From positions 1 to 64,000 of the forward strand of contig NZ_CP101291.1 of the NCBI RefSeq assembly GCF_024300645.1: DNA of 64,000 bases. Reading direction: 5' to 3'. Each line of letters opens with the position of its first letter. Positions within the stretch are counted from its first letter, which is position 1. The notes under the pieces are model-generated. The model ran no database searches, was not told the origin of the DNA, and saw only the letters and a list, made by a program, of their open reading frames with translations. This stretch comes from Alteromonas sp. LMIT006 (GTDB taxonomy: Bacteria; Pseudomonadota; Gammaproteobacteria; Enterobacterales; Alteromonadaceae). The position numbers were made by a program, and so were the translations under genes. Shown piece after piece: positions 50 to 27,267 of this stretch.

Positions 50-1207
50 TTAAAGCTCAATGGCGGCCACTTGGCAGGCGTTTCTAAGCGTCTCCTGAGA
101 TATTTTTGCATATCTAAGGGTGGTGGTATAACAGGCATGATTCGCTAACTGTTGAACACTCGCTAATGAAACGTTGCTCGATACAAGATTACTACAAAAC
201 GTATGACGTAGGTCATGTATACGCACAGTCTGAGGTATATCAGCCTCCCTTAAAGCACTCTTAAACGACTTTTTAAAATCGTTATATGGCTTTTGCGTCA
301 CAGGATTAATAAACACATAAGTACAATGCATTCCTAACACTCGGGATAAGATATCCATGGCGGTTGTGTTGAGTAAGATCACATTTTGCTTTTTATTCTT
401 AGCGACACTAGGTGGAACCGTTATTGTGCAGCTATTCATATCGACCCAAGACCATTGAAGCGCTTTTGCTACCCCACTTCTTACTCCCGTTACCAGTAAG
501 AATATCATCAATAGGTTAACCGGGCGCTCAGGGTGCTGGATGAGGACTTCGATAAAACGCTGTTGCTCTTGAGGCGTTAAAAAGCGCTCTTTTTGATTAT
601 CAAACTTAATGTACTCAACCTTATCACATGGGTTCTTAGTGACAAGCTCCCATTGTATTGCCAATGTAAACATGCGACTCAATAACTTTAAGTGTCCGGT
701 AATATGACTACCTGATAAATTTTGCTCTAACAAATTAGTTTGAAACCGCTCTATATCTATCACCTTAATCTCCTCAAGCTGCTGACATCCAAAAGTTGGC
801 TTAAGACGAAGTCGCCACATCGACTCAATATTCCTAAATGTGCGCAATCGGGTTTTGACATGTGGCCAATAATACTGCTCCCAAAACGCATTCAAGCTCA
901 ACATTGACATATGACTCGTCTGGGTAATGGGTGGTGAAAGGGGGGAATGAGGGGATTGGCTGGATTGAGGGATGAGCTGAGCCACTTTTTGTAATGCTTC
1001 TTCCAATGAAAGCCTATCGGAACGTCCTAAGTTGTGGTCTTTTTCTTTGGTGCGGTAGCGATATGTCCCCACCCCTTTTGACGTCTGACGTATCTCGATG
1101 CGAAAGCCTTTCGGTAAATTGTCCGCTCGATACTCCGCCTTAATCTTGTCCTTTGGTGTGGGTAAATTATCAATAAAAGCTTGGTCAATATATGAGTATT
1201 TCATCAT
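50..1207 (-). CDS. Tyrosine recombinase / integrase
   Basis: Site-specific tyrosine recombinase of about 385 aa, expected to integrate or excise a mobile element. The N-terminal part resembles the arm-binding domain of phage-type integrases (residues 1-80), a core-binding SAM-like domain spans about 100-200, and the catalytic domain about 205-375. The catalytic set is visible: R243 in TGVRSG, H331 and R334 in HDLRHTF, H357 and nucleophile Y366 in LRYAKI. The start is the ATG at 1207 (or 1204), which has a GGAG Shine-Dalgarno a few bases upstream. The reading frame stays open upstream into the broken recombinase gene, but a terminator-like hairpin and this ribosome binding site show the two are separate genes. 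It probably serves the element whose genes fill 1-7994; its attachment site is unproven. Confidence 0.9.
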   Translation of the reverse strand: MMKYSYIDQAFIDNLPTPKDKIKAEYRADNLPKGFRIEIRQTSKGVGTYRYRTKEKDHNLGRSDRLSLEEALQKVAQLIPQSSQSPHSPLSPPITQTSHMSMLSLNAFWEQYYWPHVKTRLRTFRNIESMWRLRLKPTFGCQQLEEIKVIDIERFQTNLLEQNLSGSHITGHLKLLSRMFTLAIQWELVTKNPCDKVEYIKFDNQKERFLTPQEQQRFIEVLIQHPERPVNLLMIFLLVTGVRSGVAKALQWSWVDMNSCTITVPPSVAKNKKQNVILLNTTAMDILSRVLGMHCTYVFINPVTQKPYNDFKKSFKSALREADIPQTVRIHDLRHTFCSNLVSSNVSLASVQQLANHACYTTTLRYAKISQETLRNACQVAAIEL

Positions 1208-1246
1208 TATCTCCGGTATAAAATGTTGTTTAATGCTTTGAATGAA

Positions 1247-1268
1247 AAGGCAGGGGTGAGCCTGCCTT
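1247..1268 (-). terminator. Terminator after the serine recombinase gene
   Basis: An 8-bp perfect stem (AAGGCAGG at 1247-1254, CCTGCCTT at 1261-1268) with a 6-nt loop and a short T-rich tail on the minus strand. It lies 7 bases past the restored-frame stop of the recombinase at 1275-1277. It separates that gene from the integrase downstream. Confidence 0.6.
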
Positions 1269-1274
1269 GTATGA

Positions 1275-1945
1275 TTAAGCCTGACGCAGTAGTCGTGACA
1301 CGATGGCACTGCTGAAAGGCTTGTTACGATAACTGCATAACCCACGTTGATTGAGCAAGTGGGCCAGTTCGACCGTATTGGCTTGCGGGTACTGAGCTTG
1401 CAGATGATGGATGACCTTGATGATTTTTTGTCGCCAAGCGCCTTGAGCAGACGTACGGGCTTGAGTTGCAGAAATAGTGTCAGTATTACGACAACGCTCA
1501 GTTGGGGGTTACCCAATTTCACACCACGCAACTTTGCCGCACTAAGGGCTGCTTTAGTTCGTTGCGAAATCATCTGCGCTTCATGTTGGGCCATTGCAGC
1601 CAAGATATGAATCGTCAGTTGGTCGATGTCAGGGAAATCAGCGAGTTTAAAGCGGACCCCTTTTTTCTGTAAGTCAGTAATAAAGTGTAAGTCTCGGCTT
1701 AGCCTATCTAGTTTAGCCACTAACAAAACAGCATTAGCCAGTTGAGCATATTCCACAGCCCTTTCAAACTCTGGACGGTCAGAGGCTTTGCCCGAACCAA
1801 CCTCTGTATACTCAGCCACTAAGATGCCATTGTGTAGCCTTAGAAAATCACTTATGGCCTGTTTTTGAGCTTGCATTCCTAAGCCAGCTTTTCCTTGCTT
1901 CACCGTCGAGACTCGGTAATAAGCCACATAGTTAATTTGACTCAT
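1275..1945 (-). pseudogene. Serine recombinase (resolvase family), frameshifted
   Basis: Small serine recombinase. The N-terminal resolvase domain is intact: YYRVST with nucleophile S13, and KLDRLSRD in the middle. After the motif KLGNP the frame breaks. Reading one frame back gives a sensible C-terminal helix-turn-helix ending in SRLLRQA and a stop at 1275-1277. The gene is 671 bases, one short of 224 codons. One extra base in the C run (G run at 1504-1508 on the plus strand) restores a 223-aa protein. It could be a real mutation, a sequencing error in a homopolymer, or a -1 slip site. An AAGGAG ribosome binding site precedes the ATG, which overlaps the stop of the upstream membrane protein gene by 4 bases. 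Confidence 0.8.
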
Positions 1946-2208: not shown

Positions 2209-2607
2209 TTAAGACGTCGTCTTGTTAGGGACAACTGCGTGGTTTTTACAGATGGCATCGAGGTTGCCAATTTCGTGTCGATAAACATGCTTTGAGGATG
2301 GGCAAAGCATGCCTTCTTGGCGTAATACTGCTGCTAAAAAAGAAGCGTTATTTGCGCTTTTTCCAACAAACAAGCAATTGAATACCGTTGAGCTAAATAC
2401 TTTCTCTGTTGGGAGTTTCTGCAAAACATCTTTGATTGCTGTTATAGCAATGATGTCCGGGCTAAAAAACCCACCTCCAGAGTTCGATACGAAGCGCAAA
2501 TAGATATTCTGTTTGTCATCATGCAGGATGTCGTAGTTAAGCTTTGCATGCGAACGTGCATTGAGTAGAGGGCATTGTCCCGATGATATTAGAGTATAAC
2601 CCTCCAT
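2209..2607 (-). CDS. Hypothetical protein with HDD / NSGGG motif
   Basis: A 132-aa protein starting at the ATG at 2607, which directly follows the stop of the upstream gene and has a strong GAGGAGG ribosome binding site. A longer frame upstream overlaps the neighbour and is not needed. No known family is recognised. Residues about 28-55 hold HDD followed by a beta-rich stretch ending NSGGGFF, closely echoed in the neighbouring 103-aa protein (HDD then GNAGGGVF). The two are probably paralogues or two halves of one functional pair. The C-terminal half is unlike the neighbour. It lies in the mobile block. Confidence 0.65.
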   Translation of the reverse strand: MEGYTLISSGQCPLLNARSHAKLNYDILHDDKQNIYLRFVSNSGGGFFSPDIIAITAIKDVLQKLPTEKVFSSTVFNCLFVGKSANNASFLAAVLRQEGMLCPSSKHVYRHEIGNLDAICKNHAVVPNKTTS

Positions 2608-2608
2608 G

Positions 2609-2920
2609 TTAGACCTCCTCAGCGTGCAAGATGAGTAAAAACACACCGCCCCCGGCATTACCGGTGATCTGACAGTAAAGTGAACATCCATCATCATGCT
2701 CGACAAAGTCCGGCTCTAATAAACAGCGAGTTTGAGCATCCGTCAAAACAGTTGGATAATCCGATAACTGAATATGCAAGCAGCATTTGGTGTCATGCCA
2801 GAATGCTTTTGACTCCTGCAAGTTATCAAAAGGCGTTACGATGACATCATGTAATAACCGATGCGCATGACTAGAGATTGCCATAGGGGTATCCCATGGC
2901 CACGTGTATGTTGTATACAT
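2609..2920 (-). CDS. Hypothetical protein paired with the downstream gene
   Basis: A 103-aa protein, first of an apparent two-gene operon; its stop sits one base before the next ATG. The C-terminal part (residues 50-100) contains HDD, then an alternating beta-like run ending GNAGGGVF, similar to the downstream protein. There is no signal peptide or membrane segment. The family is unknown to me. A GGA about 8 bases before the ATG is a weak ribosome binding site. It is divergent from the polymerase-like gene at 3113, so both may share the 190-bp regulatory region. Confidence 0.6.
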   Translation of the reverse strand: MYTTYTWPWDTPMAISSHAHRLLHDVIVTPFDNLQESKAFWHDTKCCLHIQLSDYPTVLTDAQTRCLLEPDFVEHDDGCSLYCQITGNAGGGVFLLILHAEEV

Positions 2921-3112
2921 AAGGTATTCCTATAAATGAATAAGATGGAGCAGTGCACGTAATGAAATACCGTGCTCTGTTTGGAAGGAGTTTTCCGATA
3001 TAGATACTGATTTTTTCTCAGTTTAAATAATCAGTTTTTGCGAGCATCTCTGATTATGTTTATTCTATAGCGATACCTATTTTGTAATGTGCATGAACAG
3101 TAAGGAGCTGTG

Positions 3113-4621
3113 TTGACTGATAAACTCGATAGACGCTTTGATTGGTACCCAACTTTTACCAACAAGAGTATCAATAAGCTGGTGGATGAGTTAGCCAATA
3201 CCAGTGTTGAACTATTGAACAAATCTCAGCAAGGGGGTAATGCACAAAAGCGACGAGTTGCATTGGAAGACATTGCCAGACATCTGATATGCGCACTATT
3301 TATTAACTACCAAGAAAAGCAATACCACAGGCATGAAAAGCTCATCAGTATTCCTTTGCACAAGCGCCATTACCACCTCACTGACCCCAACAAAATTCCT
3401 TATGTATACCCCAACAAAGTCGAAGCGGTCTTTAAGGCGCTTGATAGATTAGATTGGATAACGATACAAAAAGGTCAATATCGCTCCTCAGGTCAATCCA
3501 AAGTCACGGTTTTTAAAGCAACACAAATACTGGAAACGGCCTTTTCTCAGTTAAACATACACTGGCTTGCACAACAGCCCATGCCAATGCAAAGAGGCGT
3601 TGAAATCAGAGACAAAGACAAAACAGATAAGGCCGTTGCTATTGCTCATACCCACCCCAATCTTGACCATGAAAAATTGCACACATATCAACAAAATTTG
3701 GCGAAGATAAATGGTCACCTTGTACAACAGTGCATCCACCTTGATGCCACGGACGAGCAGCTCAGGCAAATACTGACACGTGAGCATGTTGACCAACGCA
3801 CTCAACAACCTTACCAACACCATATAGATATCAATATGGTGCAATTACGACGCATATTTGCAAAAGGACGTTTAGATAGAGGGGGGCGATTTTACGGAGG
3901 CTGGTGGCAAGGGGTATCATCAGAGCACCGCCCAGTCATTCGGATCAACAACCGCAAGACCATCGAAATAGATTTCAGTGGAATTGCCATCAATATAATA
4001 TATGCACTTAATAAGACATGCCTGCTTCCTAAAATAGATGTATATGATATTGGATTACCAAACTGGGAGGGGAAAGAGGATAGACGTCGCCCTGTGGTAA
4101 AAAAGGCCTTTAATGCGTTTATCAATGATGAAAAGGGACATTATCGATTAAGTGGAAAAGACATTAAGGCCCTCGGGTGTAACACTCAGGAACTGAAAAA
4201 AAAAATCATACTCACCCACCCTGTTATAGAATCTATATTCAGTACACAAATAGGCCTAGAGGCTCAGTATTACGATAGCTGTGTGGCAGAAGATATCATG
4301 CTGTCCCTCTTGGCACTTGGGATAACCTGCTTGCCCATTCATGACAGCTTTATTGTGACAGCATCACACTGGGATATCCTACAAACACAGATGCAACAAA
4401 GCTTTAAGAAAATAATGGGTGTGGAGATAACAGTAAAACCAGAGGTCATCAAGTCACACCGCACTTTGCATATCCAGAATAAAGATATGGCACTCAGGCC
4501 ACCCCATGAGGACATCCTATCAACACAAGAACTTCATCAAGCATTCCTATTTAAGCAAGAGGGAAACCTCATGCAGAGATATTATGATAGCTATACTGAT
4601 ATCAAGGGAAAGGATATTTAG
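3113..4621 (+). CDS. Polymerase-like protein with N-terminal winged helix (family A palm-like motifs)
   Basis: A protein of about 502 aa (numbering below from the in-frame GTG at 3110). The TTG at 3113 is preferred as start because AAGGAG at 3102-3107 is 5 bases upstream; the GTG is too close. Residues about 50-145 look like a winged helix (a helix with KALDRLDWITIQ, then a basic wing). Residues 255-450 hold three motifs reminiscent of family A polymerase palms: EIDFSG (motif A-like, D288), RRPVVKKAFN (motif B-like R/K/N spacing), and PIHDSFIV (motif C-like, H411 D412). A conserved-looking GGRFYGGWWQ block precedes motif A. No exonuclease domain is visible. An element-encoded replication protein is the likeliest role, but this is inference from motifs. 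It is followed by a CTAATG repeat cluster. Confidence 0.6.
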   Translation: MTDKLDRRFDWYPTFTNKSINKLVDELANTSVELLNKSQQGGNAQKRRVALEDIARHLICALFINYQEKQYHRHEKLISIPLHKRHYHLTDPNKIPYVYPNKVEAVFKALDRLDWITIQKGQYRSSGQSKVTVFKATQILETAFSQLNIHWLAQQPMPMQRGVEIRDKDKTDKAVAIAHTHPNLDHEKLHTYQQNLAKINGHLVQQCIHLDATDEQLRQILTREHVDQRTQQPYQHHIDINMVQLRRIFAKGRLDRGGRFYGGWWQGVSSEHRPVIRINNRKTIEIDFSGIAINIIYALNKTCLLPKIDVYDIGLPNWEGKEDRRRPVVKKAFNAFINDEKGHYRLSGKDIKALGCNTQELKKKIILTHPVIESIFSTQIGLEAQYYDSCVAEDIMLSLLALGITCLPIHDSFIVTASHWDILQTQMQQSFKKIMGVEITVKPEVIKSHRTLHIQNKDMALRPPHEDILSTQELHQAFLFKQEGNLMQRYYDSYTDIKGKDI

Positions 4622-4677
4622 TATTCATCTTCTTTAGATACTATTAAATATTAAAGAGAATAATAAGAATAACTCCC

Positions 4678-4787
4678 CTAATGTTCTCTAAGTAGCACTA
4701 AGGGGCTACTAATGGTCCCTAATGAAAGCCTATGGATGCCTAAGGCTACCTCATTAGTGGCCCCAACTTTGTAATAAGTACCATTAG
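4678..4787. repeat. Cluster of five CTAATG repeats (iteron-like)
   Basis: CTAATG occurs at 4678, 4709 and 4719 on the plus strand and as CATTAG at 4752 and 4782, five copies in 110 bases. Two lie in a 13-bp imperfect inverted repeat: GGGGCTACTAATG at 4702-4714 against CATTAGTGGCCCC at 4752-4764, with 12 of 13 matching. The cluster sits directly after the polymerase-like gene. It could be a binding site for that protein or part of an origin; function is not shown. Confidence 0.5.
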
Positions 4788-4904
4788 GTGATTAAGAGTG
4801 CTTTGTGTCCGTCCGGCAAACCCCGTCTAGCAACACTGGTAAGGCCTGAGACTTCCCGACACTTTTTATGGTAAAAATGTAACTATAACCATAAGAGGTA
4901 AATC

Positions 4905-5240
4905 GTGTCCGTCCATAGTAAAGGCAAAACGCTGACCATCAGGATGTGCATCGTTTCAATTTTTGATGGTGAGGAAATGGTCGGGAAAATTTTATGGGGT
5001 ATATGTGTCGAGGACATGACGTACCGCTTTGCAACCAACGACTACATTAGCACATCAAAAATAGTGGAAATATCACCTAACAATCAGTTAATCAAAACCA
5101 CTAGCGGTAGCCTTTATCAAGTTATTGGCGCAGGCAAAAAAGCCGAAGTGCAGATGAGAGATTTCCAACTCCTTCGGCATGGATTTTCGCCTGAACAGAT
5201 CACCCAATTGAATGTGGCACCAAACGACTATTTTCATTGA
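4905..5240 (+). CDS. Hypothetical protein, mobile block
   Basis: A 111-aa protein starting at GTG 4905, with AGAGG about 7 bases upstream. It has no signal peptide, membrane segment or family I recognise. The sequence alternates short hydrophobic strands and ends with a helix (about residues 84-105). It lies between the CTAATG repeats and a convergent DUF3644-like gene. The first 10 bases of the gene (GTGTCCGTCC) also occur exactly 100 bases upstream at 4805. Confidence 0.55.
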   Translation: MSVHSKGKTLTIRMCIVSIFDGEEMVGKILWGICVEDMTYRFATNDYISTSKIVEISPNNQLIKTTSGSLYQVIGAGKKAEVQMRDFQLLRHGFSPEQITQLNVAPNDYFH

Positions 5241-5289
5241 CCCAAAAAACAAAACCAGTTTCCGCTGGCTTTGGTTTGAGAGCAAAAGC

Positions 5290-6504
5290 TTATTTGTTTC
5301 TCAGTTGTTTTTTACGAAATTCTTTAGCAGAATCCAACCAATTAGGCTGCATTAAATTTTCTACAAACCACACAATAAACTTTTCTGAGTAGCGGGGTCT
5401 CCCATCAATTTCATATCGAAATTCGGATTTCTTTTGCTTTTTGATCTTGTGTTTACTTATTACAGCCTGAAATGCTCCGCTTTTTATAAATGCGATATCT
5501 TGCCGTTTGTTAATCTCGTCTAAAGCTTCTTTCTGATGATATGGATGAGTCAACTCTGGGTCTTTGGTTTTAGTAATTATTATCGCACCTTCACCTTCAT
5601 CTCCCACGCTTAAAGAAAGGTCACTTTCATCCTCTCGCTTAACAAGAGCAAGTCGATAATCAATTGGTATCGAAAATTCAGTTGAATCAACTTCCTTGGC
5701 TGTTTTATCAAACCTATTAATGAATTTAGAAACAGAATTGGCGGTATGCTTGCCATATTGCTTTTGAATAAGGGCTATTTCTGGCTTGGGGCCATCAAGT
5801 ACAAGGCTTAACATACCGACACTTTGCCCAGCCAAAGGCGCATTACCCATTTCATTTTTATATCTGGTTTGATAGTTCAAGACGGTTGCTTGAAACAGCC
5901 GTGATAGCTGCGGTTGCAATTCAGGCATTAACAAATGAACAGCTTGATCTCGCAAGTCTACTAGTGTTTCCAAATTTATACGTACAGGATCTTTCTCTTG
6001 AAGCCTTCGTTTTAAAGCATCGGAAACAGAAAGACTTCTATCATTGTCATAGAAAATCTTGTCATATCCTTCGACCTTTAAGATCTCCGCTTTTAACAAT
6101 AACTCCCAAGCATTAACTATCATAATAGTAAATGCTTCGACTCTATTCTTCATACTTGGACGATTGTATACTTCTAGCGCCAACGTGAACGCATCAAGAC
6201 TTCGACCAATCAATTTCTCGTAAAATTGTTCTTCGGGTGTCTTCTTCTTAGCTTTCGCAGACTGACTCATAACAGCCAGAAACTCTTCATTTGAAAGTGC
6301 TGCGATTCCTTCACACCTATATTTAGTGCGGGAGCCAGCGTGAAAAACATACTTATCTAAAAGCTTTTCATTTATGTATTTATTGACTGAGTTTTTGCTA
6401 TATGTTGTCTGCTCTACAATCATATCAGCAGTGAAAATAGTGCCGTTTACTTCAAATTCTCGTAAAGTTTCTGCTAGTTTTATCTGGTTATAATTCCTTG
6501 CCAT
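5290..6504 (-). CDS. DUF3644-like protein with HEPN-type RX4H motif
   Basis: A 404-aa cytoplasmic protein. An N-terminal helix-turn-helix-like region (about 22-50) is followed by a helical domain (about 95-215) that matches what I know as DUF3644: AFTIMIVNAWELLLKAEIL at 124-142, then RDQAVH at 185-190. That last motif is R-x4-H, the spacing of HEPN ribonuclease active sites. The C-terminal part contains charged strands and a basic end with a KKLQ-type tail. DUF3644 genes often lie in accessory islands. A defence or toxin role is plausible but not shown, and no antitoxin partner is seen beside it. Start ATG 6504. Confidence 0.7.
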   Translation of the reverse strand: MARNYNQIKLAETLREFEVNGTIFTADMIVEQTTYSKNSVNKYINEKLLDKYVFHAGSRTKYRCEGIAALSNEEFLAVMSQSAKAKKKTPEEQFYEKLIGRSLDAFTLALEVYNRPSMKNRVEAFTIMIVNAWELLLKAEILKVEGYDKIFYDNDRSLSVSDALKRRLQEKDPVRINLETLVDLRDQAVHLLMPELQPQLSRLFQATVLNYQTRYKNEMGNAPLAGQSVGMLSLVLDGPKPEIALIQKQYGKHTANSVSKFINRFDKTAKEVDSTEFSIPIDYRLALVKREDESDLSLSVGDEGEGAIIITKTKDPELTHPYHQKEALDEINKRQDIAFIKSGAFQAVISKHKIKKQKKSEFRYEIDGRPRYSEKFIVWFVENLMQPNWLDSAKEFRKKQLRNK

Positions 6505-6555
6505 TTAACCTTTTCCATAAAAAGTTGGTTATTCTTTATCTTCTATGTCAGATAT

Positions 6556-6581
6556 TAAAAAGCCCCGACTAGCGAGGCTTT
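6556..6581 (-). terminator. Terminator after the lipoprotein gene
   Basis: On the minus strand AAAGCC, a short imperfect inner stem, then GGCTTTTT and further T/A bases. It lies 13 bases past the lipoprotein stop and closes the rhs-lipoprotein unit. Confidence 0.7.
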
Positions 6582-6593
6582 GGATTCAAAAGG

Positions 6594-6977
6594 TTACTTC
6601 ACCACATATTTTAACGATAGGCCGCAATTTTCACCATAATCAAACGTTATGAAATTTCCAACTACAAGCTGCTCATCAGCATCATACCAAGAAGAAACTC
6701 TACTGTTTTCAACGTATGTGTTTAAAGGAATGGTAAACACCGTCTGCCCTTTTTCTATTTTATGAAGGAGCACACCTTGCAGTACTTTCCCTTCAATTTC
6801 AGTGGGAGCGGAAAGTTCTACATTTAGCAACGGTCCTCGCTTCGTGAGCGTTATTTTGAATAGTTCTGCATATTTACTACTATTTTCAGCAATACTCTCT
6901 TCAGTAATCAAGCAAGTAGTCGCTTTGCAACCAAAACTAAACGCAAGAAAAGTAATTAAAACTATATATTTAATCAT
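6594..6977 (-). CDS. Small lipoprotein, candidate immunity protein of the Rhs tip
   Basis: A 127-aa protein with a lipoprotein signal: hydrophobic residues 3-16 and the lipobox FSFGC, so Cys17 would be acylated. The mature part is a small beta-rich domain with C22 and C118 that might form a disulphide. Its ATG overlaps the stop of the Rhs fragment (ATGA), so the two are translationally coupled, as is usual for Rhs toxin-immunity pairs. The periplasmic location would suit neutralising a protease delivered to the periplasm. The immunity role is inferred from position only; no family is recognised. Confidence 0.6.
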
Positions 6978-7994
6978 GGATAGACTCGACTCATAACGTG
7001 ATCTGGGTTTTTATAACGTTTCCCTTTAGGCAAGTTTTTAAATGACATCTTTTGTCCAAAACTACCAAATCTATACGGCACAAAACCCATATATTTAGGA
7101 TGTGTTAAACCTACATTATGCAAAGACTCATGCCCAGCCATCCATTGAGTATTTCTATTGTTACCGAATGCAGCATGGTCCGTTGCTACGTTGATGGTTG
7201 TACCACCAACTACAGCATTTCCAAAATTACCGTTAATATCACTGGTTGAAACCGCATTTGCCATGTGCCCACCTGAGCCATCATCATTTAACTTTGCAGC
7301 TCCGGCATCAAGGTCGTTTGCCATAGAGTTTAGCTCTGAGGCTGAATAGCCATCTCCATTAGTTGCTCCATCTTCTAGTCCTGCCGCCTCTTCACGCATT
7401 GATGCAGCACTTGCGGTCATATCTGAAGCTGCTTGTTTTTGAGCTGCATCAAATTGCTCCCATTGCTCATCCGTCCAACCACTTCCTCGACCATACATAC
7501 CCGTTGGGTCAACCATATTAATAGGATCATTCCCCACATATGCATACAGATTCATCTGATCTTCATAACCAATAGGGTCAGTTTGCAGGAATCGCCCAAG
7601 CTTTGGATGATAAATCCGTGCTTTGTAGTAGTATAATTGTAACTCGTTTAAATACAATTGCCCCGTATAGGCAAACAAGGTGTTATTAATGCCAGCAGGC
7701 ACACCAAAAGCATCGTATTGATTGACCTGCGATACTTTGCTATTGCTCAGATTGCTCACCGCAATGACACTGCGTTGGTAATTGGCATGTAAGTATTGAG
7801 TGGCACTGTAACTTGCTGCTGCGCCTTGGTATTGGATGAGCGGCTCATCGATTTGATCGGAGTGAATAAATCGCGCGGTGATATTGTTATTGCCATCCGT
7901 TGTGGCAATTAGCGCATCCCTTGCAAATACATAGTAACTCGTTTTGTCATTGATAATGGTCTTGTATAAACGCCCATTTAGATCGTAGGTAAAA
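6974..7994 (-). pseudogene. Truncated Rhs protein with metzincin-type C-terminal toxin domain
   Basis: The 3' part of an rhs gene. The frame is open from the tRNA end (first codons encode [12 protein letters not shown], a YD repeat) to the stop, 339 codons. It includes the conserved Rhs core end ([20 protein letters not shown] through [11 protein letters not shown]). Beyond that junction a variable tip of about 175 aa follows. It carries [11 protein letters not shown], an exact HExxHxxGxxH zinc-protease motif (residues 210-220 counting from the ATG at 7759). Thousands of bases of Rhs shell and secretion signals are missing upstream, so it is an orphan tip. Translation could still begin at ATG 7759 (261 aa). 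The lipoprotein gene overlaps its stop by 4 bases. Confidence 0.8.
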
Positions 7995-8071
7995 TGGTGG
8001 CCCGACCCCGACTTGAACGGGGGACCTGCCGATTATGAGTCGGATGCTCTAACCAACTGAGCTATCGGGCC
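7995..8071 (-). tRNA. tRNA with CAU anticodon (elongator Met or Ile2)
   Basis: The minus strand folds into a complete cloverleaf: acceptor GGCCCGA pairing with TCGGGCC, D-arm GCTC/GAGC, anticodon loop CTCATAA, T-arm CCCCG/CGGGG with TTCAAGT, and encoded CCA at 7997-7995. CAU fits elongator tRNA-Met or the lysidine-modified tRNA-Ile2. The acceptor start GGCCC is like E. coli ileX, but I cannot decide without a model comparison. Its 3' end abuts the Rhs fragment and is a plausible integration target. Confidence 0.95.
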
Positions 8072-8103
8072 ATTGAGAGGTTCAGCACAGAAGTGCGGGT
8101 CGC

Positions 8104-8132
8104 ATTATAAGGACATTTACAGGCGTTGTCAT
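8104..8132 (-). promoter_or_regulatory. Promoter of the CAU tRNA gene
   Basis: On the minus strand ATGACA (8132-8127), 17 bases, then a perfect TATAAT (8109-8104), followed by the GC-rich discriminator GCGACCCGC typical of stringently controlled stable-RNA promoters. It lies about 32 bases upstream of the tRNA 5' end. Confidence 0.75.
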
Positions 8133-8285
8133 CACAGAATTGTGAAATCCTACACAAAAACCCAATCACCAACATATCAGCCTGATTATAATTAAAGAGA
8201 TCATTGAACACTTTTACTAGGTGAATTGGCATTCCTGAATTATGATTGCTTTAAAAATATTTCATTACTTTAACAAGGACAGAGA

Positions 8286-9191
8286 ATGCGAATTGGTATT
8301 TTATCGCGCAATCCCAACCTCTATTCCACTCGCCGACTGCGTGAAGCGGCTGAGCTGAAAGGCCATGTAATCGACATCATCGATACCATGCATTGCTACA
8401 TGGATATTACCAGTGCCAAACCATCGGTTCGCTATAAAGGACGTGCATTACCTCATTATGATGCGATCATTCCTCGCATTGGTGCATCGGTTACGTTCTA
8501 TGGTACCTCGGTCGTGCGTCAATTTGAGATGATGGGTACCTATTCCATTAATGAGTCGGTTGCGATCAGTCGTTCTCGTGACAAGCTGCGTTCATTACAG
8601 TTACTTTCTCGCAAAGGCATTGGTATGCCGCGTACCGGGTTTGCCAACCATCCAGACAGGATTGACGATTTGATCAAAAATGTTGGCGGTGCGCCTGTGG
8701 TCATAAAATTACTCGAGGGCACCCAAGGTATTGGCGTGGTACTCGCTGATACCAATAAAGCAGCAACGGCCATCATTGAAGCCTTTATGGGGCTGAATGC
8801 CAACATTCTGGTTCAAGAATATATTAAAGAAGCTGGTGGTGCAGACATTCGTTGTCTGGTCGTCGGAGGCAAGGTCATTGCCGCGATGAAGCGTCAAGCC
8901 CCTCCAGGAGAGTTTCGCTCTAATCTTCATCGAGGTGGTACTGCAAGTTTGGTAAGACTTTCTCCTGCTGAACGTAAAACGGCTGTTGATGCAGCCAAAA
9001 CCATGGGCTTAAACATGGCTGGAGTCGATATTTTGCGCTCGAATCACGGCCCTGTGGTAATGGAGGTGAATTCATCTCCAGGCTTAGAAGGCATTGAAAA
9101 AGCGACCGGCAAAGACGTGGCAGGTATGATCATTGATTTTATTGCCAAATCTGCCAAACCCAACGCCACCAAGACTCGAGGCAAAGGCTAG
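8286..9191 (+). CDS. rimK: Ribosomal protein S6 glutamate ligase RimK
   Basis: A 301-aa ATP-grasp ligase, the length of E. coli RimK (300 aa). It adds glutamate residues to the C-terminus of ribosomal protein S6. The N-terminal domain ([18 protein letters not shown]), the glycine-rich ATP-grasp loop (LEGTQGIGV, about residue 143), the segment [14 protein letters not shown] and the metal-binding end [14 protein letters not shown] are all visible. A clear AAGGA ribosome binding site precedes the ATG. Its TAG stop overlaps the GTG of the next gene by one base. It is the first gene of a three-gene operon with two hydrolase genes. Confidence 0.95.
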
Positions 9192-10210
9192 TGAAAATCG
9201 CCCCTTTAACGATTGCGGGACAGACCATTAACGCTGGGGAAACGGTTCGATTGGGGTTGGAGATGCCCCCACTCTACACGGATACAAGCATGCACATCCC
9301 CATTGAGGTAAGACGTGGAAAACGCGCTGGCCCGATTATGTTTGTGAGTGCAGCCATCCACGGGGATGAGTTAAATGGGATTGAAATCATCAATCGTCTA
9401 CAAAAAAGTCGCTCGATTAAGAACCTAAAAGGCACTTTGATTACGGTACCCATGGTCAATGTATACGGTGTGCTGAATCAAAGTCGTTATTTGCCAGACC
9501 GGCGCGATCTGAATCGCTGTTTTCCGGGTAGTCGCAAAGGCTCACTTGGTGGTCGTATTGCGCATCTTTTCGTCGAGGAAATTATTAAAAAATGTGATGT
9601 CGGTATTGATTTGCACACCGGAGCGATTCATCGCTCGAATTTACCTCAAATACGAGCTAACTGTGATGATGCTGAAACGTTGGAGATGGCAAAAGCTTTT
9701 GGTATGCCGGTCATTTTGAACGCTGATTTACGGGATGGATCCATGCGCGAAACCGCTAGCGAGCTTGGTGCCAAAGTGTTGTTGTATGAAGCTGGTGAAG
9801 CCTTGCGTTACGATGAATTTTCGATTCGAGCTGGTGTTAAAGGGATCATCAATGTGATGCGTCAAATCGGTATGCTCAATAAGGTCAAGCGCAAGGGGCA
9901 CCCAATTGCACCATTCATCGCTCGGCAAAGTGGCTGGGTGCGCGCAAATGAAAGTGGCTTAATCAATCATCATGCTCAACTTGGCGATCATGTGAGTAAA
10001 GGCGAAGTGCTAGGCACTATCGCCAATCCTTATGGCGATGTATTGGACAAAATCCTCTCTCCCTCGGAGGGGGTTGTGATTGGCAAACAAAATATCCCGC
10101 TTACTCAAGAAGGGGAGGCGGTCTATCACATTGCGTATTTTCATAAACCCGATACCGTGGCAGAACACGTCGAACTGCTGCAAGATAATTTGGATACGGT
10201 AACACGATGA
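9191..10210 (+). CDS. Zinc peptidase of the succinylglutamate desuccinylase / aspartoacylase (M14) family
   Basis: A 339-aa protein of the AstE/AspA group of M14 metallohydrolases. Zinc ligands are H57 and E60 in HGDE and H142 in DLHTG; a catalytic-type Glu lies in LLYEAGEAL. The C-terminal 80 residues form a biotinyl/lipoyl-like beta domain (GDHVSKGEVLG) common in this subgroup. The start is a GTG overlapping the rimK stop (TAGTG); the stop overlaps the next start (ATGA). Given its operon, the substrate may be glutamate tails on S6 or another RimK product rather than succinylglutamate, but that is inference. Confidence 0.85.
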   Translation: MKIAPLTIAGQTINAGETVRLGLEMPPLYTDTSMHIPIEVRRGKRAGPIMFVSAAIHGDELNGIEIINRLQKSRSIKNLKGTLITVPMVNVYGVLNQSRYLPDRRDLNRCFPGSRKGSLGGRIAHLFVEEIIKKCDVGIDLHTGAIHRSNLPQIRANCDDAETLEMAKAFGMPVILNADLRDGSMRETASELGAKVLLYEAGEALRYDEFSIRAGVKGIINVMRQIGMLNKVKRKGHPIAPFIARQSGWVRANESGLINHHAQLGDHVSKGEVLGTIANPYGDVLDKILSPSEGVVIGKQNIPLTQEGEAVYHIAYFHKPDTVAEHVELLQDNLDTVTR

Positions 10211-10650
10211 ACAAAACCATCATTGGGGCAATTGAACAGTGCAATTTGCCCAAATTAGCCATCAAAGGCTTACATATTCGCGTTGATACTGGCGCCGCCA
10301 CCTCATCTTTGCATGTCGATAATATCGAAGAATTTGAAAAAGACGGCATACCGTGGGTCAGTTTTGACATCCACCCTGACTATCACGATGTCAAACGAGT
10401 CGTGCGCCGTGAAGCACCGGTGGTATCTCGCAAAATCGTCAAAAGCTCAACTGCGACCCGCGAAAGACGGTTTGTGATAACGACCCCGATAACGATGAAT
10501 GACACCACTTGGGACATCCAATTGACCCTCACCGATCGCTCGAACATGACGTATTTGATGTTACTTGGACGTGAAGCGATGCAAGACCGCTTTATTGTGG
10601 ATCCAAGTATTGAGTATATTCTGGGGCGCTTTGCTACAGAAGATAACTAA
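10207..10650 (+). CDS. rimB: RimB-like retropepsin-type protease (Zn_protease / DUF785 family)
   Basis: A 147-aa protein of the family annotated as ATP-dependent zinc protease, structurally a retropepsin-like aspartic protease. The active-site motif DTGA is at residues 27-30, followed by SSLH; a second hydrophobic block ends MLLGREAM. In Pseudomonas the rimABK operon encodes a member of this family (RimB) that acts with RimK on S6. The 4-base overlap with the upstream gene puts all three genes under one transcript. The symbol is assigned by family and context. Confidence 0.8.
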   Translation: MNKTIIGAIEQCNLPKLAIKGLHIRVDTGAATSSLHVDNIEEFEKDGIPWVSFDIHPDYHDVKRVVRREAPVVSRKIVKSSTATRERRFVITTPITMNDTTWDIQLTLTDRSNMTYLMLLGREAMQDRFIVDPSIEYILGRFATEDN

Positions 10651-10743
10651 ATTCAGCTCTTAAATAGGTAATTTGTCACTTTGTCCAAGCTTTAGCTATC
10701 GCCAGGTTTACTTGGAATGATAACGCGTATGGTGCGCCAAGGG

Positions 10744-11610
10744 CTATTGGTTACCATGCTGATTTTGCACCGTTTTCTTTTGGCGAAAGTACAAGACGAT
10801 ACCTACTCCACCCAAAATTGAAATGCTAGCAATGCTCAAACGCAATGTCAGCATTTCATCCAATAATACAACTCCAGCAACGGCCGCAATGACCGGGACA
10901 CTGAGTTGTAAACTGGCCGCTGTACTGGCTTTCATGCTTGGCAACACTGCATACCAAATTGCATAGCCTACACCTGATGTGATCGCACCTGATAATACCG
11001 CATAGATCACGCCATACCCATCCAAGGTTGCATAACTCAAGCCAATCACACTTAATACCAGCGCAAATGGAATACTGTAAATAAAATTTAGAGCCGTCGT
11101 TTGCGTTGGATCACCCCCTTGTTGCCCGCGTAAGGTATACAAGGCCCACGCTATGCCTGAACCTATCATCAACATTGCACTGGTCAGGGGCGGAGCCGTT
11201 ACCCCAGGTAAAAACAAATAAACCAAGCCCAACCAGGCCATAACAAAGCCGAGCCATTGCGGTTTTGAGAAGCGGTCACCTTTCCACCAACTCAAACTCA
11301 ACATGGTGAGTTGCACCGTCGCAAACAAAATTAACGCCCCAGTGCCCGCTGATAGACCTATGTAAGAGAGCGAAAAACAAATCGCATAGACAAATAACCA
11401 CAAAGCCGAACGCCAGCTTTTTTGCGAATAAATTAAGCTCTGCCGCTTAACCAAGTATACAATAAGTAGCAGACACAACGCGCCAGAAACCAAGCGGATT
11501 GTGGTAAACGATACTGGATCGATATTAGTTTCATACAAAGCTATTCGGCACAGTAACGAATTTCCAGCAAACGCTAGAAGCGCCAAAATGGTTAAGATAA
11601 TTAGTCGCAT
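10744..11610 (-). CDS. DMT-superfamily (EamA) transporter
   Basis: A 288-aa integral membrane protein with ten predicted helices in two EamA repeats (about 1-135 and 145-280). Family members export amino acids, nucleobases or other small metabolites across the inner membrane; the substrate cannot be read from sequence. Helix ten ends near residue 278 and is followed by a short charged tail. Start ATG 11610 has an AAGGAG ribosome binding site. It is a single-gene unit, divergent from the metalloprotease gene. Confidence 0.85.
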   Translation of the reverse strand: MRLIILTILALLAFAGNSLLCRIALYETNIDPVSFTTIRLVSGALCLLLIVYLVKRQSLIYSQKSWRSALWLFVYAICFSLSYIGLSAGTGALILFATVQLTMLSLSWWKGDRFSKPQWLGFVMAWLGLVYLFLPGVTAPPLTSAMLMIGSGIAWALYTLRGQQGGDPTQTTALNFIYSIPFALVLSVIGLSYATLDGYGVIYAVLSGAITSGVGYAIWYAVLPSMKASTAASLQLSVPVIAAVAGVVLLDEMLTLRLSIASISILGGVGIVLYFRQKKTVQNQHGNQ

Positions 11611-11732
11611 AACATCTCCTTTACAGTATTTGTAAAGCTTTGTTACAAACTAAGCAATGATTAGTTAGTCGTAGGGGTAGGCATTTGTGGATTGACTCAT
11701 TAGTATATTTGCAGCAAAAATGGAGAATGTAC

Positions 11733-14426
11733 ATGAAGAATATGAGTTTAACCGCCATTGCGGTTGCCCTAGCCCTGTCGCTATCCCCCCAAATTTTAGC
11801 CACCGAGTTACTCGCTGAAGATGCTCCGAAACCACCGAAAGCCGAAAGCTCCAAAGCTCAGGAAGAAGGTGAACAAGCCGAAAAAAACGAAGAAGAAGAA
11901 GACGAGGAGGATGACGCAGAGAAAGAAGAAAAAAAAGAAACCTTTGCGGACAAAGTCAAAGATCTTGACCACCTCCCTGGTTATTTAGAAATTTATCGCG
12001 ACCCTAAAACTGGCTCTGCAAAACTGAGTTTGAGCAAAGACCAGCTTGATACTCCAATTCTATACTTTGCCAAAACCGTCAATGGTGTGGTGGACGTACG
12101 TCATTTTGTCGGAGCATATCGCACCGAGCGTTTAATTGAATTTCGTCAGTACTTTGATCGTCTTGATGTTGTGGCGGTGAATGACTTTTTCTATTTCGAT
12201 CCAGAAAATGCTCTTAGCAAGGCGTCTCACGCCAATACATCAGATGCGATTTTGGTGACCACTAAGATCGAATTTGATGAAGAAGGCAAAATCCTTGTCA
12301 ATTTAGATGATATTTTGTTGAATCAAAATGTGCATCGTATTCAGCCTTACCCAAGTCGCAACCCCAAAGTGGAAAAAGAACGCTTCAAACTCGGCAAGCT
12401 TTCAAAGAATAAAACTCGCCTAAACAGCGTAAACAATTTCCCTGAAAATACGCACGTTACTGTGGATTATGTGTTTGAAAACCCTACCCCGCGCAACTGG
12501 GGCACTGGCGGTAATGCCGATCCCCGTTTTACCACCATTAGCTTGCAACACGCTTTTGTAAAGTTACCGGAGAACAATTTTGAACCTCGTGTAGATGATG
12601 CGCGTGTTGGCTATTTTGGTACGTACAAAGACGACCAAACTACACCTGATACCACACCGTATCGCGACTACATCACGCGCTGGCATTTAGAGAAAAAAGA
12701 CCCAACTGCAGAGGTATCTGACCCAGTCAAACCCATAACATGGTGGATTGAAAACACCACACCTGTCGAGTGGCGTGAGACTATCAAAGAAGGGGTGTTA
12801 GCGTGGAACTCTGCGTTTGAAAAGGCCGGAATTAGCAACGCGTTAGAAGTCAAGATTCAGCCCGACGATGCAGATTGGTCTGCCGAAGATGTTCGTTATA
12901 ACGTCTTACGCTGGACGAGCTCTCCACGCCCTCCGTTTGGCGGCTACGGTCCAAGTCTAGCAAACCCTCAAACAGGGGAAATCATTGCTGCAGACATCAT
13001 GCTTGAATACGTATTTATGACCAATCGTTGGTTGTATGAAGGTATGTTCACGCAAGGTACGATGTTGAATGACAATGACGCACACGATGCGCATGATCAC
13101 AATTCGTTAATGAACGCCTGGGCTGAAGAGACGTTACATTGCTCAAAAGGCCACGAAATCAATATGGGCGTGGCATTAGGTCAGATGATCGGCGGCCAAA
13201 GCACCACTGATATCTATGACCTAGACAATAATGAGATTTTGCGTCAAGGCTTATTACACCTTACTTTACACGAAGTGGGTCACACTCTTGGCCTGAATCA
13301 CAACATGATGGCCTCGCAATTATATTCGCCCAAAGACGTGCATAATGCAGACATCACACAAGGAGCCATCACAGGATCGGTCATGGATTATGCCCCAATC
13401 AATCTTGCGCCAGTGGGTGTTGAGCAAGGCGATTACTATGATTACGCGCCAGGGCCTTATGATGATTGGGCCATTTATTATGGTTACTCTCCCGCACTGG
13501 ATGATCCAGAAGAAGAAGCCAAACGCCTAGAGTCTATTTTGCAAAAATCGACGCAAAAAGCACTCGCCTTTGGTAATGATGCCGATGACATGCGTGCACC
13601 TGGCCGCCACATCGACCCTCGGATCATGACCGGTGATATGTCGAGCGATGCCGTGACCTATGCTGAGCAATACATAGAGCGTTTACACTTTGAGGCCAAA
13701 ACGCTTAAAGACAAAGTGTTACAGCCAGGCGAAAGTCATCAAGATTTGGTGGTAGCGGCCAATATCATTGTCGGCAGCATGGGGACCCAAGCCAACGTGA
13801 TGTCTCGCTATGTTGGTGGTGTTTACATCAATCGTGCGGTGGTGGGCCAAGAAGGATATGACCAGCCGTTTACGCCAGTCCCACGTGAGAAGCAAGTACA
13901 GGCAATGCAAGCGCTCAATAAGCATATTTTTGCACCTGATGCGATTGCTGACTTAGAGCCGCTTTTTGCGTTTTTACAAAAGCAACGTCGTGGATTTAGT
14001 CACTACGGCAACAACGAAGATCCAAAGCCACACTCCATGTTATTGCGCATGCAGTCTCGTGTGATGGACCATCTGCTCCACCCAAATGTCATGATGCGGA
14101 TCACTGACAGCACTCGCTATGGAAACGAATATCCATTAGCCGATATGCTCAATGATTTAACTGATGCGGTGTTTAAAGCGGATATTCGTGGCGATGTGAA
14201 TACGTATCGTCAAATGTTACAAGTGGCCTACGTTGAACGTCTAATTGCCATTGCAGGATTAGAAAAGCCAAGTAAGCATGATTTGATCAGTCAAGCGACC
14301 GCAACTTATATCTTGCAAGAGTTAAATGATACGTTAAAAATCAATCGTGGGGATACCGCGACTAAGATTCATCGGAACTTCTTAAAAGACCGCATGAACC
14401 GAGCGTTTCACAAATCGAAAACTTAA
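11733..14426 (+). CDS. Secreted zinc metalloprotease (DUF5117/DUF5118 type, metzincin motif)
   Basis: An 897-aa exported protein. The start is ATG 11733, with TGGAGA 6 bases upstream; longer in-frame starts lack spacing. A Sec signal peptide covers residues 1-24 (ending ILA-TE). A highly acidic Glu/Lys/Asp linker (about 30-70) follows, then a large domain that leads to HEVGHTLGLNH at 513-523, an exact HExxHxxGxxH zinc motif, and a Met-turn-like SVMDY. The layout matches the large zinc-dependent metalloproteases carrying DUF5117, common in marine bacteria and Bacteroidetes. It probably acts in the periplasm or outside the cell on proteins or peptides. A strong terminator follows. Confidence 0.85.
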   Translation: MKNMSLTAIAVALALSLSPQILATELLAEDAPKPPKAESSKAQEEGEQAEKNEEEEDEEDDAEKEEKKETFADKVKDLDHLPGYLEIYRDPKTGSAKLSLSKDQLDTPILYFAKTVNGVVDVRHFVGAYRTERLIEFRQYFDRLDVVAVNDFFYFDPENALSKASHANTSDAILVTTKIEFDEEGKILVNLDDILLNQNVHRIQPYPSRNPKVEKERFKLGKLSKNKTRLNSVNNFPENTHVTVDYVFENPTPRNWGTGGNADPRFTTISLQHAFVKLPENNFEPRVDDARVGYFGTYKDDQTTPDTTPYRDYITRWHLEKKDPTAEVSDPVKPITWWIENTTPVEWRETIKEGVLAWNSAFEKAGISNALEVKIQPDDADWSAEDVRYNVLRWTSSPRPPFGGYGPSLANPQTGEIIAADIMLEYVFMTNRWLYEGMFTQGTMLNDNDAHDAHDHNSLMNAWAEETLHCSKGHEINMGVALGQMIGGQSTTDIYDLDNNEILRQGLLHLTLHEVGHTLGLNHNMMASQLYSPKDVHNADITQGAITGSVMDYAPINLAPVGVEQGDYYDYAPGPYDDWAIYYGYSPALDDPEEEAKRLESILQKSTQKALAFGNDADDMRAPGRHIDPRIMTGDMSSDAVTYAEQYIERLHFEAKTLKDKVLQPGESHQDLVVAANIIVGSMGTQANVMSRYVGGVYINRAVVGQEGYDQPFTPVPREKQVQAMQALNKHIFAPDAIADLEPLFAFLQKQRRGFSHYGNNEDPKPHSMLLRMQSRVMDHLLHPNVMMRITDSTRYGNEYPLADMLNDLTDAVFKADIRGDVNTYRQMLQVAYVERLIAIAGLEKPSKHDLISQATATYILQELNDTLKINRGDTATKIHRNFLKDRMNRAFHKSKT

Positions 14427-14444
14427 TCTAGGTTAGAAAATTGG

Positions 14445-14475
14445 AAAGGGGCTGAAGATTCAGCCCCTTTTTTGT
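14445..14475. terminator. Bidirectional terminator between the metalloprotease gene and hldE
   Basis: A near-perfect hairpin, AAAGGGGCTGAA then TTCAGCCCCTTT with a 2-base loop, followed by T run on the plus strand and preceded by A-rich sequence for the minus strand. It serves two convergent genes. Confidence 0.9.
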
Positions 14476-14487
14476 CTATTTGACAAG

Positions 14488-15921
14488 TTACTCGCCCGTT
14501 ATCTGCTTGATGATCGCAGTAGTAGATACCCCTTCTTCAAAATGCATGATTTTGACTTCACCACCATTGGCAATCACCTCAGCCCCACCTGCAATTTGCT
14601 CTACGGTATAATCCCCTCCTTTGACCAAGATATCTGGCAACACCTCAGCAATCAATGCCTGTGGCGTATCTTCCCCAAATGGCACGACAAAATCCACAGC
14701 GCCTAACCCAGCCAATACCGCCATCCGACGCGAGACATTGTTCACCGGCCGACCTGCGCCCTTTAAGCGAGTAACCGAAGCATCGTCATTGACCGCCACA
14801 ATCAAACGATCGCCTAATTTTGCCGCTGCTTGTAAATACGATACATGACCTGCATGTAAAATATCAAAGCATCCATTGGTCATTACCACTTTTTTGCCTT
14901 GTGCTTGTAACTGACGAACGGTATACACAAGTTGCTCGGCATTCATAACACCACTGTCTTCGTGCACCACATCTTGTATCGCTAATGATAATTCAGTTGG
15001 AGATACGGTTGATGTTCCAAGCTTACCCACCACGATGCTTGCGGCTTGGTTTGCTAACACACATGCCTGATTTAATTCCAAGCCAACGGCAACGCCTAGC
15101 GCAAGGGTCGCGACAACCGTATCACCAGCTCCGGTCACATCATAAACTTCTTTGGCTTTGGCCGGTAAGTGATAATCAGGGCCCTGTGAAAACAACGACA
15201 TGCCATGTTCCGAACGCGTGACCAAAATATGTTCGAGAGCCAATTGCTCACGCAAAGCTTGTGCTTTGGTGCTCAACTCACTTTCACTATTAACAGAACC
15301 TTGAATTTGTTGGAATTCAGACATATTCGGGGTAATCAACATTGCCCCGCGATAGCCACTGTAATCAGTGCCTTTGGGATCAACAACCACTGGCACTTGT
15401 GCTTGCTTTGCGAGTGCAATCAAAGACGCTGCATCACTTAATGTGCCTTTGGCGTAATCAGAGAGTACCAACACATCAACATCGCCTAATACCGCTGCGA
15501 CTTGTTGCGTCAATACGGATTTATCTACCTGAGCAAATGACTCTTCAAAATCCAAACGCAATAACTGTTGGTTGCGACTCATGACTCGTAATTTGGTGAT
15601 GGTATCCATACCATCAACAAAAGCAAAATGACAGGTCACCCCATGAGCTGACAAACGCTCCTCTAGGATTTTAGCCGCCTCATCCGCAGCGCCTTCTCGC
15701 GCTCCACACAGGCCAACCAAATGCACTTGTGCACCCAATGAAGCTGCGTTAATGGCCACATTTGCAGCCCCGCCCGGCCTAGCTTCATGGTCATTGACTT
15801 TCACCACAGGTACTGGTGCTTCTGGTGAAATCCGGCCAGTATCGCCACTGTAATAGCGGTCAAGCATGATATCGCCGACAATCATAATACGGGTGTTCTG
15901 AAAAGACGGTAAATGAACCAT
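14488..15921 (-). CDS. hldE: Bifunctional heptose 7-phosphate kinase / heptose 1-phosphate adenylyltransferase
   Basis: A 477-aa two-domain enzyme that makes ADP-heptose for the lipopolysaccharide inner core. The PfkB-type kinase domain (1-~320) shows [16 protein letters not shown] and the ATP/active-site block [11 protein letters not shown]. The cytidylyltransferase-type domain (~345-477) begins [16 protein letters not shown], with the HAGH nucleotide-binding motif. The start is placed at the ATG encoding MVHLPSF (15921), which aligns with known HldE N-termini; an in-frame upstream codon adds four residues with no support. It may be cotranscribed with the DUF350 gene 30 bases upstream. Confidence 0.95.
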
Positions 15922-26574: not shown

Positions 26575-26595
26575 AGAATTGTTTTGATTTAATCT

Positions 26596-26620
26596 GGGCC
26601 AGTCGTTACTGGCCCTTTTT
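26596..26620 (+). terminator. Terminator after fadE
   Basis: GGGCCAGT, CGTT loop region, ACTGGCCC, then TTTTTG. Rho-independent form, 22 bases past the fadE stop. Confidence 0.9.
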
Positions 26621-26636
26621 GTTTCTGTTGTGCACT

Positions 26637-26646
26637 GTGCTAGAAT
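26637..26646 (+). promoter_or_regulatory. Possible extended -10 promoter of tdk
   Basis: TGCTAGAAT fits an extended -10 element (TGn then TAGAAT at 26641-26646), 31 bases before the tdk start; the -35 region is weak. Confidence 0.4.
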
Positions 26647-26676
26647 CCAATTCTTTTAAAGATCCGAGACGGTTTT

Positions 26677-27267
26677 GTGGCACAACTTTATTTTTATTAC
26701 TCAGCAATGAACGCAGGCAAATCGACCGCCTTGTTACAATCTGCGTACAATTATGAAGAACGTGGTCACAAGATTTTGTTGTACACCGCCCAACTGGATA
26801 ATCGCTATGGCGCGGGCAAGATCACATCTCGATTAGGCATCAGTCGCCCTGCGTTGACCTTTCACGAAGGAACTGATTTATTCAGTGATGTCATTGCCAA
26901 ACGCGAACTCGGCAATATCGACTGTATTTTCATTGACGAAGCTCAGTTTCTGAGTAAGCAACAAGTTATGCAATTAGTTCATATTGTGGACGACTTAGAT
27001 ATCCCAGTTTTGTCTTATGGGATCCGTACAGACTTCTTAGGAGAAACCTTTCCAGGCAGTCAATATCTGTTGGCGTGGTCTGACAAATTAACGGAACTCA
27101 AGACGATTTGTCATTGCGGCCGCAAAGCGAATTTTGTCGTTCGACTTGACGAGCAAGGTCATCCCATCCACGGTGGTGAACAAGTACAAGTCGGGGGTAA
27201 TGAGCGCTATGAATCTGTGTGTCGGAAGCACTTCAAAGATTTGGTGTGGGGGCACTTACCCATTTAA
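26677..27267 (+). CDS. tdk: Thymidine kinase
   Basis: A 196-aa type II thymidine kinase of the salvage pathway, phosphorylating thymidine to dTMP in the cytosol. The Walker A motif is SAMNAGKST (9-17), Walker B with the catalytic Glu is CIFIDEAQF, and the zinc site is formed by the pair CHC(G) and the later CRKH. Size matches E. coli Tdk (205 aa). The start is GTG 26677; the residues [12 protein letters not shown] fit the family N-terminus exactly. It is a single gene between two terminator-like hairpins. Confidence 0.95.

Follow-up and report, generated by a model that had tools for sequence, protein, structure and literature searches.

The beginning of contig NZ_CP101291.1 of Alteromonas sp. 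LMIT006, of which the first 64,000 nucleotides (the window) were analysed, raises the question of what enzyme, if any, is encoded by a gene lying beside recombinase domains, whose product resembles the family A polymerases in three short motifs, and what such an enzyme would do for the element carrying it. The original prediction, made by eye, described a mobile-element protein that joins a probable winged helix to family A-like palm motifs and lacks an exonuclease, and suggested a compact replicase or initiator-polymerase. The gene and the parts of its product are the following:

3113..4621, plus strand: predicted TV-Pol/divPolA2-like family A polymerase, 502 aa.
3242..3553, plus strand: N-terminal domain (about residues 44-147), a possible winged helix by its helix-strand pattern and weak matches to regulators.
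3881..3898, plus strand: strand 257-262 with R259, in the place of TGRLSS of DNA polymerase I (Pol I) by the Pol I alignments.
3971..3973, plus strand: motif A aspartate D287, at the end of strand 281-288 of the model.
4088..4102, plus strand: motif B, R326xxxK330, in helix 326-338 of the model.
4340..4351, plus strand: motif C, HDSF 410-413, with D411 between strands 407-409 and 412-416.

The TTG at 3113 is taken as the start codon, with AAGGAG upstream ending 5 nt before it; because of the alternative start, the GTG at 3110, the aspartates first numbered D288 and D412 are D287 and D411 here. The 2.53-Mb contig carries, at 2529281-2530786, a second and 99% identical copy of the gene. Two trivial explanations were ruled out, namely the host Pol I, since the genome has its own at 707700-708833, and an error of assembly where the contig begins, since the stretch spanning its end and start is also contiguous at 967-1216 of L036, the locus of the second copy.

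With the single window protein as the query, Pfam at E up to 10 returned no family, neither an exonuclease nor PF00476, and the searches of NCBIfam and of the PDB sequences gave nothing useful. In PHROGs, the single protein matched phrog_4756, of unknown function, with E 2.8e-43, and the same group was matched by all 44 members of the family. None of these members matched PF00476 at E <= 0.5, and no exonuclease is among the Pfam matches of the window protein or of the 44, so that the predicted lack of this domain holds. The members form alignment A2, whose 44 rows were taken from two scans of viral contigs, one scan of genome contigs (16 loci) and the genome searches. The invariance of GRFYGG and HDSF in A2 is partly built in, because 25 of the rows came from a pattern scan for GRFYGGW or LP[IV]HDSF[IV]; D287, R326 and K330 fall outside both patterns and are thus free of that selection bias. 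Identical in all 44 rows are R259, D287, R326, K330, H410, D411 and F413, and D309 in 43 of them, which bears out the family A-like motifs A, B and C; both aspartates, whose loss from homologues had been named as a possible refutation, are kept throughout. The published relative AUR84708, found by profile, keeps the arginine, both aspartates and RxxxK, and differs in motif C, which reads FDE as against HDS here. The conservation together with the fold described below rules out a chance match of motifs. For the three pairs among the loci L005 (a Glaciecola metagenome-assembled genome, MAG), L006 and L007 (both Glaciecola HTCC2999), dN/dS amounts to 0.105, 0.132 and 0.133, and the polymerase gene is, by this measure, under purifying selection.

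Relatives were found in bacteria and in many large phages. The genome searches found them in 4 of 98 related genomes, and the A2 profile, run over 369 genomes of the class, matched 6, including the own genome and one Pol I; by tblastn (E limit 10), 251 phage records were found, 115 of them of Rheinheimera. In the record MG592441, the profile matched at 25490-26725, the exact place of AUR84708, with E 7.1e-41 over 401 of 441 positions. In a tree of 45 rows the phage and bacterial labels need 6 changes, of which the starred branches force at least 2; AUR84708 stands there on a very long branch, and the split between phages and bacteria is left unsettled by that tree. Several outliers were seen besides. 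ORF100 of Vibrio phage ICP1 (NC_015157.1, 53458-54723) is a distant relative with 20% identity (E 1e-7, with the protein of locus L029 as the query), the viral contig L060 encodes at 3215-5539 a relative of 775 aa, far longer than the others, and the HTCC2999-like genome G006 contains broken remnants of the polymerase gene (L025, L026, L027 and L028, the last at C8:498658-501192), with stops in some of the pieces.

The AlphaFold2 model of the protein has pTM 0.83, with pLDDT mostly about 90 or above in the palm, and its order of elements (strand 281-288, helix 291-299, fingers helices 326-375, helix 380-401, strands 407-409 and 412-416, helix 417-435) shows, as far as a model can, that of a polymerase palm. 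The Foldseek search of the full model against PDB listed 469 entries at E <= 10, of which the 43 ranked highest are all family A DNA polymerases, as judged for most of them from their titles; none of the 469 reaches E 0.001, and the TM-scores by query length are low, 0.13-0.33 for the best 50. Against BFVD, 21 matches were obtained at E <= 0.001, including a "DNA polymerase" of Rheinheimera phage Barba31A, and the replication protein of the Zamilon virophage stands at rank 28 (E 3.5e-3, prob 1.00). The sequence comparisons point the same way: hhalign against 30 Pol I sequences scored 22.9 on the expected stretch, which is not significant alone (probability 0.5, E 0.12), and in 0 of 20 column shuffles was this score reached (best 17.9). 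The A2 profile reaches a cellular Pol I in only 1 of the 369 genomes (G269, E 5.4e-4), where the alignment falls on the expected part of the protein and sets GGRfY against TGRLSS and ElDYS against DYSQ; in the profile search of PDB, 12 of the 19 chains listed are Taq Pol I, at E 0.7-2. From these several weak, independent lines in agreement, namely the model, the fold search, the conservation and the profile match to a cellular Pol I, the predicted family A-like palm is taken as established. The family is among the smallest forms of this palm, which DNA polymerase I shares as its core with the T7-like RNA polymerases.

An alternative reading of the protein is a single-subunit RNA polymerase transcribing the genes of the element or of a phage, a possibility named for divPolA2 by Yutin et al. 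2024 (PMC11348598). Mitochondrial RNA polymerases do enter the PDB list from rank 44, and phage RNA polymerases are among the BFVD matches; however, DNA polymerases rank first in the fold search, the sequence match of motif A is to DNA Pol I, and the N-terminal model gave no confident match to a promoter-binding domain, T7 RNA polymerase being found at rank 30 with prob 0.21. The transcribing enzyme is therefore considered quite unlikely, and the DNA polymerase is preferred.

The identity of the N-terminal domain is less firm. The five best matches of the family profile in PDB, covering residues 50-152, are transcription regulators (E 0.096-0.54), which we presume to be of the winged-helix type, and the model of residues 1-163 (pTM 0.79) contains, after a helix, strands 116-120 and 131-136, arranged as a two-stranded wing. 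In the Foldseek search of this model, 0 of 533 matches fell at E <= 0.001, the first rank being an RNA ligase with prob 0.16, and regulators are numerous among the matches, reaching a probability of 0.82 at most. The winged helix of the original prediction is thus likely, though weakly supported: the regulators among the best profile matches speak for it, and the best E of 0.096 and the fold search do not.

The genes around the polymerase form a module, of which two copies are found in the genome:

1..4807, no strand: copy 1 of the module, sharing 99.4% identity with copy 2 (L036 12971-17775).
50..1945, minus strand: serine resolvase and tyrosine integrase domains in one 631-aa frame (PF00239, E 1.1e-25; PF00589, E 6.6e-23).
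2209..2607, minus strand: small conserved ORF, homologue of a 124-aa ORF in the Glaciecola copies (alignment A3; phrog_28971, E 2.8e-17).
2609..2920, minus strand: small conserved ORF of 103 aa, present in 5/5 Glaciecola-type copies.
2982..3036, no strand: conserved non-coding block in the interval between the divergent small ORFs and polymerase gene, a candidate origin or operator.

In copy 2 the resolvase and the integrase are two separate ORFs, of 223 and 483 aa. The gene order integrase, resolvase, two small ORFs and polymerase is common to copy 2, L006 and L007, and L005 also has all five genes. By BLAST with one query for each recombinase, a resolvase or integrase was found beside the polymerase in 12 of 18 bacterial loci and none in the other 6. 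Both small ORFs were followed as possible single-stranded DNA-binding (SSB) partners: the 124-aa family has no Pfam match and no relative in the viral contigs or phages, and the 103-aa ORF has no Pfam match at E up to 1. The block 2982-3036 shares 89% identity with its counterparts in L006 and L007, as against about 67-72% for the genes; 49 of its 56 columns are conserved, against 33 of 72 and 36 of 102 in the flanks, and it contains an 11-nt inverted repeat (3006-3016/3025-3035).

Among the element ORFs searched by family, neither a helicase nor an SSB was recognised, and the lack of a recognised helicase favours a polymerase that is not a replicase and that fills gaps or repairs DNA, completing recombination or filling in the single-stranded incoming DNA. 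Repair is the other role suggested for divPolA2 (PMC11348598), and second-strand synthesis after uptake was suggested for the PolA-SSB primases (PMC10061031). The conserved non-coding block beside the gene, such as an origin or operator would form, argues against it as weak evidence, and such a filling enzyme is considered unlikely. A role as replicase or initiator-polymerase is plausible.

The limits of the island lie beyond the module and are as follows:

4808..7990, no strand: island cargo with a DUF3644 candidate defence gene, an Rhs-like ORF (by eye) and small ORFs.
7995..8071, minus strand: tRNA-Met (CAT), with the core GATTATGA at 8031 and a repeat of its 3' half at L036 19703-19750.

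The 8-bp core is the anticodon-loop sequence of tRNA-Met, and the copy 1 island measures 8210 bp from core to core. The 3'-half repeat, of 48 bp, lies on the left side of copy 1, and a shorter piece of 31 bp is found near L036 967 (967-1000); in HTCC2999, the complete tRNA-Met is preceded by two copies of 49 bp. In both genomes, therefore, islands stand in tandem at tRNA-Met, a shared hot spot. The best proof of the island ends in the compared sequences is L005, in which the core occurs exactly twice, at 4779 and 14893, 10,114 bp apart, and in which the island (4779-14900, 10.1 kb) interrupts the T2SSF gene of the Glaciecola MAG. Each flank holds one half of a single T2SSF gene (Pfam E 2e-26 and 5.2e-28); aligned with one homologue from the genome of the window, the two halves account for residues 2-183 and 195-401, and joining them gives an open frame. 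The 4.8-kb module itself is not bounded by terminal repeats of at least 10 nt, direct or inverted, in copies 1 and 2, L006 and L007, and one 10-nt inverted match was found in L005; the attachment repeats are those of the whole island and not of the module. The attachment repeats at tRNA-Met and the adjoining resolvase and integrase domains agree with the prediction that the polymerase is element-encoded.

The cargo differs by copy, being a DUF3644 gene in copy 1, a non-specific endonuclease beside L006 and a cytochrome c peroxidase in L005. The DUF3644 ORF, of 404 aa (5290-6504, minus strand; E 6.3e-45), matches the candidate defence family PDC-S19 of PADLOC (E 2.3e-76). Repeats of about 0.5 kb, 96% identical and with Rhs-like coding by eye, are found at 7498-7992 of the window and at L036 2655-3123 and 4399-4893, that is, to the left of tRNA-Met and within the neighbouring island. 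With the candidate defence gene in the cargo and relatives in so many large phages, the polymerase itself might serve in the conflict with phages or other elements, as defence or counter-defence, and defence is mentioned as possible for the PolA-SSB primases (PMC10061031). However, the gene belongs to the conserved recombinase module in 5/5 Glaciecola-type copies, while the cargo varies, and such a role is highly improbable.

The predicted polymerase of the element is of a known kind: its architecture and gene company fit TV-Pol, and the branch found in phages has been known since 2024 under the name divPolA2. The TV-Pols are transposon-virus polymerases, for which a primase-polymerase activity was predicted (Iyer, Abhiman, Aravind 2008, PMC2579912), so that the idea of a primase or replicase dates from that work; a subset of them has an N-terminal domain, and resolvase and integrase neighbours are found in integration hot spots. 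The likeness includes the palm with two aspartates, the beta-hairpin arginine, the fingers RxxxK and Asp, the lack of a nuclease, and the neighbourhood of gamma-delta resolvase and lambda-type integrase in proteobacterial mobile elements (PMC2579912). The arginine, absolutely conserved in TV-Pol, is matched by R259, D309 would be the conserved fingers Asp, and helices 186-203 and 214-221 of the model lie at the position where TV-Pol has a thumb of two antiparallel helices. The differences are the D5-like helicase, none being recognised among the ORFs searched here, and the N-terminal domain, predicted as all-helical there (PMC2579912) and given a wing in the model here. Of the TV-Pol carriers, phage Ma-LMM01, named in 2008, gave no profile match at E <= 10 over the whole record and none in the ORF scan of bases 1-149,999 (the last 12 kb lying outside), and Zamilon, a kin of Sputnik, was matched by fold, as given above.

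The divPolA2 branch, with AUR84708 as representative, was described for phages by Yutin et al. (2024). The window protein belongs to the same sequence family, and divPolA2 likewise is without an exonuclease and has a globular N-terminal domain where a known thumb would be (PMC11348598); in contrast, the carriers described there are Caudoviricetes phages with a regular main DNA polymerase, and the carrier here is a chromosomal integrative element at tRNA-Met. That paper mentions TV-Pol a single time, in its Background, and the words resolvase, integrase and winged are absent from it; the preprint likewise has a single mention, in its Introduction, and no paper joining the two was found in the accessible literature on TV-Pol and divPolA2. 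In the PolA-SSB primases, such as CCPol-MP of the SCC elements, a family A polymerase of a mobile element likewise stands beside recombinase genes, as far as the available parts of PMC7581432 and PMC10061031 describe. CCPol, a TV-Pol member, primes and extends DNA with its partner MP (Bebel 2020, PMC7581432, in the text available); unlike the window element, where neither was recognised among the ORFs searched, that system has an OB-fold SSB partner and a helicase (PMC7581432; Rice 2023, PMC10061031, both in part), and the polymerase domain of CCPol is described as close to Pol I, whereas the window protein is unrecognised by PF00476. What is new here, as read from the DNA, is the gene in an 8.2-kb tRNA-Met island with resolvase and integrase domains but no helicase recognised, together with a related 10.1-kb copy exactly delimited.

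Taken together, the protein is probably an exonuclease-less family A-like polymerase of the TV-Pol/divPolA2 kind, which on a cargo-bearing tRNA-Met element would prime or extend its DNA. Going by what is established for such elements, the tyrosine integrase would excise the element by crossover at GATTATGA in the anticodon loop of the tRNA, the polymerase would prime and/or extend the DNA on the excised element with the help of the host, its N-terminal domain perhaps guiding it to the block 2982-3036, the serine resolvase might resolve multimers or aid the integration, and the element would re-integrate after the synthesis on the excised circle. A wider proposal, rather doubtful as a whole, is that the TV-Pol elements and the phage divPolA2 constitute one self-sufficient primase-polymerase family, in which the N-terminal winged helix would take over from thumb, SSB or helicase the task of bringing the enzyme to the origin (the block 2982-3036), one protein both initiating and copying a tRNA-integrated element.

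Joining the TV-Pols to divPolA2 would give both a testable role, in which they would prime and copy small replicons; the exactly delimited 10.1-kb copy with its 8-bp core offers a concrete element for the test. If the protein were to prime unaided, it would be a primase that belongs to neither the DnaG nor the AEP family and does without the SSB partner that CCPol needs.
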